Notes under the pieces: model-generated
Database searches by the model: none
The model's input: the letters and a program-made list of their open reading frames with translations, nothing else
Told to the model about the DNA's origin: nothing
Translations under genes and position numbers: made by a program
Source: Streptomyces spiramyceticus
Lineage (GTDB): Bacteria; Actinomycetota; Actinomycetes; Streptomycetales; Streptomycetaceae
Length of the DNA: 64,000 nucleotides
Assembly (NCBI RefSeq): GCF_028807635.1
Contig: NZ_JARBAX010000002.1
Location: forward strand, 1-64,000
Direction of reading: 5' to 3'
Shown here: one piece after another, positions 25,596 through 28,456 of the stretch
Layout of the letters: the number at the start of each line of letters is the position of its first letter
How positions within the stretch are numbered: position 1 is the first letter of the stretch

Positions 25596-25636
25596 GCGGT
25601 AAGGGGTGTCCTTCCAGGGAGGGCACCCCTTACCGC
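25596..25636 (-). terminator. Bidirectional hairpin at the rhodanese stop
   Basis: GCGGTAAGGGGTG and CACCCCTTACCGC form a perfect 13-bp stem. The TAA stop of the rhodanese gene is inside the right arm. It can serve both recX (plus) and the cysteine dioxygenase-rhodanese operon (minus). Confidence 0.8.
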
Positions 25637-26031
25637 ATCTCCCATGGAGCCACCGGCAGCCCCGCCGCACGCCAGGCCTGGAAACCGCCGTCGAGGTCCG
25701 TCGCCCGGCGCAGGCCCAACTGCCGCAGTGACGCGGCCGCGAGGCTCGATGCGTAGCCCTCGTTGCAGATCACCACGACCCGCAAATCATGGCTGGTTGC
25801 CTCCGGGGCCCGGTGGCTGCCTCGCGGATCGAGGCGCCACTCCAGCTCATTGCGCTCGACGACCAGCGCGCCCGGAATCAGCCCGTCCCGCTCGCGCAGG
25901 GCGGCGTACCGGATGTCCACCAGCAGGGCACCGGCCTCGGCCGCGTCGTGGGCCTCCTGCGGCCCGATGCGGTCGAGGCCCTCGCGGACCCGCTCCAGGA
26001 GTTCGTCAATGCCTACAGGTTCGCCGCTCAC
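25630..26031 (-). CDS. Rhodanese-like domain protein
   Basis: 133 residues from the GTG that overlaps the upstream gene's stop (GTGA), with GGAG five bases before; a second GTG two codons earlier is possible. Single rhodanese domain with active-site loop 'VVICNEGYASSLAA' containing the catalytic Cys. By family it carries sulfane sulfur as a persulfide. Coupling to a cysteine dioxygenase suggests handling of sulfur released in cysteine breakdown; the exact substrate is not evident. Confidence 0.88.
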   Translation of the reverse strand: MSGEPVGIDELLERVREGLDRIGPQEAHDAAEAGALLVDIRYAALRERDGLIPGALVVERNELEWRLDPRGSHRAPEATSHDLRVVVICNEGYASSLAAASLRQLGLRRATDLDGGFQAWRAAGLPVAPWEMR

Positions 26032-26585
26032 TGCCACTCCTCCGGATGCTCGACGTGCTCCAGGCGGAGTACGGCGCCCGTACGGCTGTAGCGCCGCATC
26101 ATCGGCAGCGGCGGGTAGTACGCGTGCACCGAGACGGCGTGCTCGTCCGTCGACTCGTTCAGTACCTGGTGCACGTGGTGGGCGCCGAAAGCCCGGCCCC
26201 GGCCGGCGGTCAAGTGGCGTTCCCGGTCCACCCCGTCGGCCAGTTCGAGCGTTTTCCAGCCCTCCGTCGGGATGCGCGCCGCGAGGGACTCCTCGCGCAG
26301 TGAGCCCGCCGCAGTGGCGAACGCACCCTGCGAGCCGCCGTGGTCGTGCCAGCCGGTGCCCGTGCCGGGCGGCCAGCCGATCAGCCAGGCCTCGCTCCCA
26401 CCCGGGCCTTCCAGACGCGACCATGTGCGCCCCTGGGGATCGAGCGGAAGGGAGGCCACGAGCGCGGCGTCCGCTGCGGTACGGCGCACGAATTCGAGCA
26501 GTTCAGCGGCAGAGGGTGGCGCACTTCGGGCCGCACTTCGGGCCGCGGTTCGGGGCACGGCAGATGTACGTACGGGAGAAGACAC
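26028..26585 (-). CDS. Cysteine dioxygenase family protein
   Basis: 185 residues from the GTG at 26585, preceded at six bases by AGGACGG; an upstream in-frame GTG has no ribosome site. Cupin fold with metal ligands in 'GTGWHDHGGSQGAF' and 'GAHHVHQVLNES'. The family oxidises cysteine to cysteine sulfinate with O2. The N-terminus is an Ala/Ser/Arg-rich stretch of about 30 residues. It is the first gene of a pair with the rhodanese gene and follows a Cys-rich leader peptide whose 3' codons are complementary to this gene's Shine-Dalgarno, so control by cysteine supply is likely. Confidence 0.82.
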   Translation of the reverse strand: MSSPVRTSAVPRTAARSAARSAPPSAAELLEFVRRTAADAALVASLPLDPQGRTWSRLEGPGGSEAWLIGWPPGTGTGWHDHGGSQGAFATAAGSLREESLAARIPTEGWKTLELADGVDRERHLTAGRGRAFGAHHVHQVLNESTDEHAVSVHAYYPPLPMMRRYSRTGAVLRLEHVEHPEEWQ

Positions 26586-26591
26586 AGGGGA

Positions 26592-26675
26592 CCGTCCTGA
26601 GGCAGTTCGCAGGAACGCGCGGCCGGAAAACGGCACGGCACAGCGCGGGGAGAAAAGGGCGAATCAGCAGGACGG
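26592..26675 (-). promoter_or_regulatory. Putative anti-SD/SD pairing between leader peptide and dioxygenase
   Basis: On the minus strand the last codons of the leader contain CCGTCCTG (26675-26668), the exact complement of CAGGACGG (26599-26592), which is the dioxygenase ribosome site. The two are 68 bases apart. Ribosomes on the leader would decide whether this GC-rich 8-bp pairing can form. Inferred from sequence only. Confidence 0.55.
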
Positions 26676-26711
26676 ACGACACACGCAGCCCGCATAGCGG
26701 ACGAGGTCCAT
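26664..26711 (-). CDS. 15-residue Cys-rich leader peptide (candidate cysteine attenuator)
   Basis: ATG-TGA frame encoding MDLVRYAGCVCRPSC, with an ideal GGAGGG ribosome site five bases upstream. Three of the last seven codons are Cys (TGC, TGT, TGC). It lies 78 bases before the cysteine dioxygenase start on the same strand. Cys-rich uORFs ahead of sulfur genes act as translational attenuators in actinobacteria. It is too short for standard gene callers. Confidence 0.7.
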   Translation of the reverse strand: MDLVRYAGCVCRPSC

Positions 26712-26782
26712 ATGGACCCTCCGCCACAGGCGCACATTGGTGTCGGTCACGCTCCGGAGTACACCATGCACGCCCGTGACGG

Positions 26783-28456
26783 TCAATTGATGTCCGCAGT
26801 CCGGTCGGTCCGGTCGGTCTGGTCCATTCGGTCCATTTGGTCGGAGGGCGTCGACTGCTCGGGCAGCCCCGTGCGCGGCGGAGCCTGTGCCGACGGCGCC
26901 GGTGAGCCCCCGCGCGCCGCGTCCGCCGCCGCGTACAGCTCGGCGGGCCGCACCCCGTGGAACGCCGCGACCAGATGCCCGTCGGGCCGTACGAGCAGCA
27001 CCGTGTGCGCCGACGCCCCCGGGTAGCTCTCGGTCACCAGAAGCTCCGCCCGCACGGGCAGCGCCGTCACCGCCGCGGCCAGCCGGGGCATGACCCCCGC
27101 CGTCATCCAGTGCCGCCGGTCCCATACGCCCGTGCCCGGCGCGACCAGCGTCACCAGCAGTCGCCCGCGCCCCAGCCGGTCCCGCAGCCGCACCGTAGTG
27201 CCGTCGGGAGCCGTCGCCCGTACATCCGCTACGGGAGCCCCCAGGGGCGTGCCGACCAGCGTCTGCGCTTCGGCGTGCGGGGGTGCCAGAGGGGAGCGTG
27301 TGTACTCGGGGGGCGCACCCAGAGCGCCGCGCCCCAGGTGTCCGTCCGTCAGCAGGGAGTCGTGCCCCCGCGCCGTACCCGGTAGGTACGTTCGCAGGCC
27401 TCCGCTCCGTCGCAGGATCGGCAGCGCCTGGTCGGCGGCGCGCAGGCGTGAGGCGACCGATGTGCGCCGCTCCGCCTGGTAACTGTCGAGCAGCGTTTCC
27501 GACGCGCCCAGGTGCCAGGCCTGCGCCAGCTTCCAGGCCAGGTTGTCGATGTCCCGCAGCCCCTCGTCGAGCCCCTGCGTACCGAGCGCGCCGAGCAGAT
27601 GGGCGGCGTCCCCGGCGAGGAACGCCCGGCCCACGCGCCAGCGGCGGGCCAGCCGGTGGTGGAGCGTGTACACGCCGGTGTCGATCAAGTCGTACGGAGG
27701 TGTCTCGCCGCACCAGCCGCCCAGCGTGTCCCGCACCCGCGTCACCAGGGCTTCGGGCGTGACGAGTTCGCCACGGGCGGGCAGCAGCCAGTCCAGCCGC
27801 CACACACCGTCCGGCAGGGGACGGGCACTGATTTCCTGGCCGCCCGTGCGCCACGGCGGCAGCCGGTGCAGCAACGCTTCGTCGGGCCAGGGCAGTTCCG
27901 TACGCAGTGCGGCTACGGCATGCCGTTCCACCGCCGTACGCCCGGGGAAACGGATGTCGAGGAGCTTGCGCACCGTCGACCTCGCCCCGTCGCACCCGAC
28001 CAGGAAGCTGCCGCGCCACCAGGTCGCCCCGGGCTCGCGGGTGTGCGCGGTGACGCCGCTGCCGTCCTGCTCGATGGTGTCGAGGCGGCCCTGCGGCACG
28101 ATCTGCACGAGCTCCTGCACCGCGGCAGCGGCGCGCAGCCCGCGCGTCAGGTCGTGCTGTGGCAGATGCAGGGGTGAGGGCTCGCCGCCCTCGCCAAATT
28201 CCACCTGTCTGACGTCCTGATTGCGCCGCATGGACCGCCATCCGGCCCAGCGCGCCCCGCCGTCACGGACAGTGGTGCAGCCGAGCCGCTCGACGAGGTC
28301 CGCCGTATCCGGCCGCAGGACGGCCGTACGGGCGGTACGCGGCTCCTCCTTGCCGGGCCCCTCGTCGAGGACCACAGAGGGCACACCCTGGGCGGCGAGG
28401 GCCAGGGACAGTGCCAGTCCGACGGGACCGGCACCAACGACGATCACCGGGTCCAC
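26783..28456 (-). CDS. FAD-dependent aromatic-ring monooxygenase (PHBH/UbiH type)
   Basis: 557 residues from the GTG with AGGAGGGG before it. N-terminal FAD Rossmann motif 'VVGAGPVGLALSLALAAQG', the 'GCDGARSTVRKLL' DG motif at mid-protein, and 'FLAGDAAHLLGALGTQGLDEGL' (GD motif) define FAD_binding_3 hydroxylases. A C-terminal thioredoxin-fold domain (about residues 385-530) is typical of the larger members. The substrate is probably a phenolic or polyketide aromatic but not evident. The last 20 residues are a Asp-Arg-Thr/Asp-Gln-Met triplet repeat encoded by a 9-base tandem array. It stands alone, between the cysteine leader and the glutamate operon. Confidence 0.87.
   Translation of the reverse strand: MDPVIVVGAGPVGLALSLALAAQGVPSVVLDEGPGKEEPRTARTAVLRPDTADLVERLGCTTVRDGGARWAGWRSMRRNQDVRQVEFGEGGEPSPLHLPQHDLTRGLRAAAAVQELVQIVPQGRLDTIEQDGSGVTAHTREPGATWWRGSFLVGCDGARSTVRKLLDIRFPGRTAVERHAVAALRTELPWPDEALLHRLPPWRTGGQEISARPLPDGVWRLDWLLPARGELVTPEALVTRVRDTLGGWCGETPPYDLIDTGVYTLHHRLARRWRVGRAFLAGDAAHLLGALGTQGLDEGLRDIDNLAWKLAQAWHLGASETLLDSYQAERRTSVASRLRAADQALPILRRSGGLRTYLPGTARGHDSLLTDGHLGRGALGAPPEYTRSPLAPPHAEAQTLVGTPLGAPVADVRATAPDGTTVRLRDRLGRGRLLVTLVAPGTGVWDRRHWMTAGVMPRLAAAVTALPVRAELLVTESYPGASAHTVLLVRPDGHLVAAFHGVRPAELYAAADAARGGSPAPSAQAPPRTGLPEQSTPSDQMDRMDQTDRTDRTADIN
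26800..26844 (-). repeat. Five tandem 9-base units at the 3' end of the monooxygenase gene
   Basis: Plus-strand units TCCGGTCGG, TCCGGTCGG, TCTGGTCCA, TTCGGTCCA and TTTGGTCGG. They encode a repeated three-residue pattern (Asp-Arg/Gln-Thr/Met) just before the stop. Confidence 0.75.

Follow-up and report, generated by a model that had tools for sequence, protein, structure and literature searches.

A ribosome-gated translation switch, with closed and open states predicted by folding, is considered the best and a likely explanation for the region upstream of the cysteine dioxygenase (CDO) gene in the window, the 64,000-nucleotide stretch of DNA analysed here; the progress of a ribosome past one conserved Cys codon of a short leader probably decides whether CDO is produced. 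Transcription would start with the GTG that opens a 28-codon leader belonging to the actinobacterial NF042934 family. When no ribosome is near the leader end (OFF), the last codons (CCGUCCUG) and the bases following the stop codon would pair with GCGAA...CAGGACGG and so hide the CDO ribosome site. With its A site at the first Cys codon (C9), a ribosome would still fall short of the 5' arm and the site would stay shut. At the second, UGU codon (C11) or beyond (ON), the arm would be covered, and the predicted opening cost falls by approximately 6 kcal/mol (median over loci); CDO and the overlapping rhodanese would then be translated from the opened site. Given this gate geometry, output should depend on how long ribosomes dwell between C11 and the stop codon versus their hold at C9 or their absence, and Cys-tRNA supply would presumably enter at this step.

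The minus strand carries the leader, CDO and the rhodanese, and all features described below lie on it. CDO (26028..26585) begins with GTG and matched PF05995 at 1e-45 in a profile search; the closest solved chain, 8qfr (1.4e-11), is likewise named cysteine dioxygenase. The rhodanese (25630..26031; PF00581, 1e-13) also begins with GTG, which overlaps the CDO stop codon (GTGA), confirming the CDO-rhodanese pair named in the first-pass annotation. With 28 loci checked, a rhodanese signature was found 3' of CDO in 26. The genome encodes a second CDO-like protein (L002, G000:C1:2409301-2409693; 41% identical), upstream of which no comparable leader was seen by a pattern look.

The leader ORF (26664..26750; 28 codons plus TGA; VTDTNVRLWRRVHMDLVRYAGCVCRPSC) has a GTG start and its mRNA is probably leaderless. 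Its 28 residues matched NCBIfam NF042934 (cis_reg_atten, "putative leader peptide") with 37 bits against a cut-off of 27, positions 1-19 of the profile being fully matched, and with 35.5 bits in the genome search. CDO was found in 131 of 150 genomes of the same genus, and 130 of these 131 matches were examined, G130 being left out as its match lies 87 bases from the contig start. The leader, (V/M)TDTxVRLWRRVHMDLVRYAGCVCRPSC or a close variant, precedes CDO in 127 of the 130 loci, window included (126 identified by script and L028 by eye). The three exceptions are L003, at a contig end; L143, with other upstream sequence; and L144, whose CDO is 50% identical. Codon tables were compiled from the 94 distinct 27-codon sequences among the 127 loci.

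The leader had initially been read as a 15-codon frame opening at the ATG of 26711. Both the frame and its ribosome site are present in the sequence, 26711..26664 translating as MDLVRYAGCVCRPSC to a stop codon and GGAGGG lying directly 5' of the ATG, but the ATG proved to be the wrong start. The 15 residues, when padded, scored 21.2 bits with NF042934. That the family motif begins upstream of this ATG counts against the shorter version. Among the 94 distinct leaders, the corresponding codon is ATG in 76, GTG in 5, and CTG or CTC in 13, of which 11 retain the GGAGGG, and a conserved GTG or ATG is located 13 codons farther upstream. Translation of 119 of the 127 leaders would start at this codon, equivalent to 26750 (GTG in 73, ATG in 46); in the remaining eight, a GTG lies one or two codons farther upstream. 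Given the CTG/CTC variants and the conserved upstream start, ATG 26711 and its GGAGGG were rejected as start and ribosome site of the leader itself. These two elements fall instead in a predicted hairpin within the open frame, P2 (26698..26723), which pairs the codons for RRV with those for DLVR in the minimum free energy structures of 10 loci (species permutation, 1/300 as low).

Among 119 distinct upstream regions, a promoter-like -35 element, TTGACC (26781..26786), is conserved at positions -36 to -31 relative to the start of the leader. It is followed after 17 nt by TGTACT (26758..26763), conserved as TNTACT and taken to be a putative -10 element, 7 nt before the GTG. The Shine-Dalgarno complementarity preceding the conserved GTG/ATG is weak (median -2.8 kcal/mol; 0.8% of 119 below -5 kcal/mol), and this near absence, together with the conserved spacing of the two elements, fits a leaderless mRNA, with a transcript that probably starts at GTG 26750. 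A simple sigma-70 scan found no promoter upstream of the leader. An upstream FAD-monooxygenase-like frame ends at 26783, its stop codon overlapping the TTGACC (26783..26786). With Rfam 15 models, no match up to E=1 was obtained in 25600..27200.

The 5' arm of the proposed sequestor, CCGTCCTG (26668..26675), is formed by the P-S-C codons at the end of the leader. It is the exact 8-base complement of CAGGACGG (26592..26599), the CDO Shine-Dalgarno sequence and 3' arm, which lies 68 nt away and is separated by 6 nt from the GTG that starts CDO (26585). This complementarity had been pointed out previously for the window, where it is indeed exact, and the comparison with relatives then called for has upheld it: besides the leader itself (127/130) and an invariant Cys codon at C11 (94/94), CAGGACGG is present in 120 of 127 same-genus loci and the exact pair of arms in 91. 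The seven remaining CDO sites read CAGGAACGG (4), CCGGACGG (2) and CAGGGACGG (1), GGAGG occurs at none of the 127, and the sequence flanking CAGGACGG changes freely while CAGGACGG is held. In L132, L137 and L139, a tail of CCTTCCTG occurs together with CAGGAACGG; seven loci with the same tail retain CAGGACGG. An inner helix would be formed by TTCGC (26659..26663), directly 3' of the leader stop, and GCGAA (26606..26610); GCGA is found no more than 24 nt before the Shine-Dalgarno arm in 125 of the 127 loci.

Predicted folds contained at least five tail-Shine-Dalgarno pairs in 124 of 127 loci, at least four inner pairs in 120, and both in 117 (125, 123 and 121, respectively, by a looser count). 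When species were permuted, none of 300 permutations gave an inner helix as low in energy, the gain being small (-7.04 vs -6.81 kcal/mol). RNAalifold applied to 30 hand-chosen sequences (set A1) returned the 8-bp helix as its sole output, with no pair showing double changes. In a second hand-chosen set of 31 (A2), many of them picked for variation, one pair had double changes, in 3 sequences, a score reached by 57 of 500 shuffles; covariation of the outer helix was thus not significant in either set. Within the genus this helix cannot covary because its sequence hardly varies. Shuffled tails paired as strongly as the real tail in 18% of trials (mean over the 127 loci), and hence it is not the complementarity alone, which is not exceptional, but its conservation across species that constitutes the evidence. 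That the leader and both arms are kept across the genus is supported by this comparison.

Beyond the genus, an HxDLxR-type leader (PVDxRR in some loci of genus g5) was located within 600 bases of CDO in 37 of 42 loci from 12 other genera of the family, each of which has at least one such locus, and the tails of these leaders differ. Arms resembling those of the window occur in g13 (three loci; CCGTCCCG with TGGGACGG, U-A being replaced by C-G at pair 7; shuffles as strong in 3%), g16 (two loci; CCGTCCTG with CGGGACGG; 6%), g8 (one locus; a 10-bp version; 0%) and g6 (one locus; a mismatch at pair 7; 16%), while the single locus of g9 (L196) has a wholly different complementary pair, GTGTCACCGC and GCGGTGGTGACA, over the CDO start region (0%). 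The three loci of g11 and L195 of g14 share another peptide end and a bulged complement of CAGGACGG, and as a group their pairing did not beat shuffles (75% as strong). Neither was pairing clearly above shuffles (20-88% as strong) in g2, g3, g4, g5, g7, the remaining loci of g14 and three loci from outside the family. By this measure, several genera keep the CDO leader without the tail-Shine-Dalgarno pairing. In g7 (L150, L151, L154, L156, L157 and L160), the core HLD(L/Y)LRYAGCVC is kept and a GC-rich hairpin is predicted around the leader stop; in several g7 loci, a local hairpin at the CDO site takes the place of the tail-Shine-Dalgarno pairing, which amounts to another wiring for the same type of leader.

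Leaders of the same family are found elsewhere in the genome and across the class. Three further NF042934 matches of the genome were above the cut-off and one was below (22.5 bits), with eight weaker still (E 0.2 to 8). As judged by reading of the translations, L092 appears to precede a MoaD-like gene and a CysM-like synthase, L094 a nitrite/sulfite reductase, L095 a sulfurtransferase and a DUF1416-like gene, and L096, the match below the cut-off, a dicarboxylate-type symporter. Matches at 1e-4 or better were obtained in 99 of 148 genomes of the class, representing 54 of 81 genera. The CDO leader resembles NF042934 members in its full profile match (37 bits) and as a short ORF 5' of a cysteine/sulfur gene; the four next-best matches of its own genome precede sulfur-looking genes or a symporter. 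The family entry names neither target nor mechanism, whereas the CDO leader has a cysteine-degrading target and a tail that would sequester the ribosome site of that target. With the Ms5788A family (NF042933), the leader matched weakly over its C-terminal half, its 18.3 bits being below the cut-off of 45; L095/L212 from the same genome scored better (37.9 bits) and also fell below.

The effect of a ribosome on the sequestor was modelled by equilibrium folds with a masked ribosome footprint, kinetics being outside the model. Over the 127 loci, the median predicted cost of opening the site was 12.0 kcal/mol for the free RNA, 11.0 with a ribosome at C9, 6.2 at C11, 5.3 at the third Cys codon (C15) and 5.1 at the stop codon. 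The corresponding costs for the window were 11.4, 8.6, 8.5, 7.6 and 7.0 kcal/mol; C9 and C11 are alike here when the upstream leader is free because the site finds other partners, and masking of the upstream leader separated them (12.8 vs 5.2). With 30 loci and 3' ribosome edges of 10, 12, 13 and 15 nt, C9 stayed at 10.4-12.5 kcal/mol, C11 gave 10.6, 7.9, 6.0 and 5.8, respectively, and later codons gave 5.0-7.2; with the 10-nt edge, the C11 position is accordingly still mostly closed (10.6). The mean unpaired probability of the site rose from 0.05 to only 0.25-0.30, and hardly or not at all in the window. Across the set, the model predicts C9 to be a closed position, C11 the opening threshold, and later codons open. 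Unmasking at C11 as a feature general to the leaders of the same genome was tried and rejected: L092 and L096 were unchanged, L094 went from 2.8 to 2.3, and L095 fell from 6.6 to 2.3 but did so equally at C9.

The first-pass annotation had three Cys codons jointly gating the pairing; a Cys-bearing leader was borne out, but the codons are not equal. C9 (26685..26687; TGC), at which the site is predicted to remain closed, is Cys in 93 of the 94 distinct leaders (TGC 87, TGT 6). C15, which falls within the RNA arm, is lost in 13 of 94 (TGC 74, TGT 7 in the others). C11 (26679..26681), which is the predicted threshold and the point where the family profile ends, is TGT in all 94. The same codon is fixed in the CDO leaders from other genera (37/37) and in 74 of 74 distinct leaders of a class-wide set. 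This set, collected with a pattern that required Cys at this position but any codon for it, comprised the four leaders from the same genome, the loci with the best profile scores and a further 40 chosen by hand. Other Cys positions of this set are mostly TGC (C4, TGC 38 and TGT 2; C9, 24 and 5; C12, 8 and 3). When the C11 codon of 40 loci was located solely from where the profile match ends, it was TGT in 40 of 40, with the other Cys codons being TGC in 41 cases and TGT in 2. As background, TGT accounts for 14 of the 124 Cys codons in 29 ORFs of the window. Residues R(-2), D2, R5 and C11 are invariant in the 74 distinct leaders, and of the four only C11 has a fixed codon. The C11 TGT of the CDO leader also pairs in a predicted helix, P1, which was rejected as a selected structure given its lack of excess pairing (species permutation, 115/300 as low). 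In L215, L217 and L218, each of which has a run of 5-6 Cys codons, TGT occupies 5 of 6, 3 of 5 and 4 of 6 positions of the run, respectively.

Four other explanations were weighed against the ribosome-gated switch. In plain translational coupling, the leader would only bring in ribosomes to melt the sequestor and would sense no amino acid, and its Cys codons would serve RNA pairing. Ribosomes past C11, including those at the stop codon, do open the site about equally in the folds, C15 lies within the RNA arm, and the TGT pairs in P1; the invariance of the C11 UGU amid other genes, genera and RNA contexts (74/74 and 37/37), the lack of excess pairing in P1, and the retention of the HxDLxR motif where the tail differs all speak against this explanation, which is judged unlikely. 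Given a similarly low probability is a nascent-peptide arrest, by which HxDLxR...C, acting in the exit tunnel, would stall translation at C11 in the presence of plentiful cysteine or a cysteine product and so turn the catabolic gene on. The arrest peptide TnaC, which turns on tryptophanase, provides the analogy. The invariance of the four residues with variable codons would suit an arrest peptide, as would the fact that many leaders carry just one Cys codon behind the motif, fewer than expected of a classical run, and the sense of control would suit a catabolic enzyme. The motif is, however, also found 5' of seemingly biosynthetic genes in the same genome, for which induction by high cysteine makes little sense.

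Transcription attenuation in the leader, whether Rho-dependent or intrinsic and with the hairpin as a by-product, is considered improbable. Little or no change in site opening at C11 was seen with three of the four relatives in the same genome, and Rho has been proposed, in the part of the work available, for cys leaders devoid of terminators (Seliverstov 2005, PMC1262725). There is, however, no terminator-like site in 26500..26850, a range that covers the stretch between leader and CDO, and it is the ribosome site that serves as the 3' arm, with a conserved sequence. Least probable of all is the 15-codon leader from ATG 26711: in 96% of 119 leaders, the Shine-Dalgarno energy before the codon at this position is lower than -5, but the CTG or CTC variants with their retained GGAGGG, the more upstream beginning of the family motif, and the conserved GTG/ATG and promoter-like elements upstream are all against it. 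The ribosome-gated switch thus remains the preferred reading.

Two senses of control are conceivable for this switch. The chances are about even that the gate is opened by mild cysteine limitation at the UGU codon, by analogy with the mycobacterial relatives. In the mycobacterial logic, a ribosome stalled at a Cys codon for want of Cys-tRNA opens the gate. It would be odd, however, for a cysteine-destroying enzyme to be induced by a lack of cysteine. One way out is that, under deep starvation, C9 would hold ribosomes in the closed position; another is that the conserved peptide would arrest on plentiful cysteine. Expression with ample cysteine, through ribosomes held at C9 or a cysteine-sensing nascent peptide, is accordingly entertained as a tentative alternative. 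Bacterial tRNA-Cys has the anticodon GCA, and UGU is decoded by wobble. More speculatively, the fixed UGU may be a class-wide sensor set at a constant distance from HxDLxR and chosen for its sensitivity, which the CDO leader would place at the edge of the gate with C9, two codons earlier, keeping it shut; the sense would then be opposite or band-pass, off in deep starvation and on past C9.

Among known systems, the model for mycobacterial polycysteine leaders includes an RNA structure masking the ribosome site of the next gene; the CDO leader has such a structure by prediction and conservation only. In the accessible accounts, the mycobacterial leaderless short ORFs (Canestrari 2020) resemble the CDO leader in being short Cys ORFs at a probable 5' end, with translation of the next gene set by ribosome speed at Cys codons (as proposed for the CDO leader), but the latter has no contiguous Cys tract (C-V-C and a separate C15), a catabolic target, and its Cys codons at the edge of a gate. 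Canestrari 2020 is cited for a cysteine-dependent attenuation of translation in M. smegmatis (PMC13236596, PMC9031893, PMC9094748, as excerpted), and Cys uORFs before cysA2 and nirA had earlier been proposed, in the available text, as possible attenuators (Shell 2015). The leaders described in the excerpted Seliverstov 2005 (PMC1262725) are also actinobacterial peptides with Cys codons and without a terminator; they differ in preceding cys and cbs operons and having Cys runs near the stop codon, and ribosome-site sequestration is not among the features described in that excerpt. Of the eight leader peptides in the accessible part of the S. lividans reannotation (PMC8079986), none is Cys-dependent.

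Attenuation by Cys leaders is thus of a known kind; the catabolic target, the gate geometry and the fixed UGU were not found in print in the portions available, the novelty of the UGU being unproven. Mention of a fixed UGU was not found in the accessible portions of PMC1262725, PMC4633059, PMC9094748, PMC9031893, PMC8079986, PMC13236596 and PMC4833913, Canestrari 2020 being outside this comparison, and no paper linking a bacterial CDO to a leader peptide was found, as judged by titles and the beginnings of abstracts. If the proposed switch is true, cysteine breakdown would be controlled by a ribosome-read leader of the kind that also governs cysteine synthesis, and the CDO leader would provide a clean test of how a single sensor, depending on where its codons stand relative to an RNA hairpin, can act on genes with opposing roles. 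The invariant UGU offers an exact and inexpensive target, a single silent base change, for asking why the common Cys codon is avoided there. In the available Table 4 of the S. lividans reannotation (PMC8079986), the leader metL, listed as Met-dependent and located before metNIQ, ends in CMCRRMCAF and might sense cysteine.
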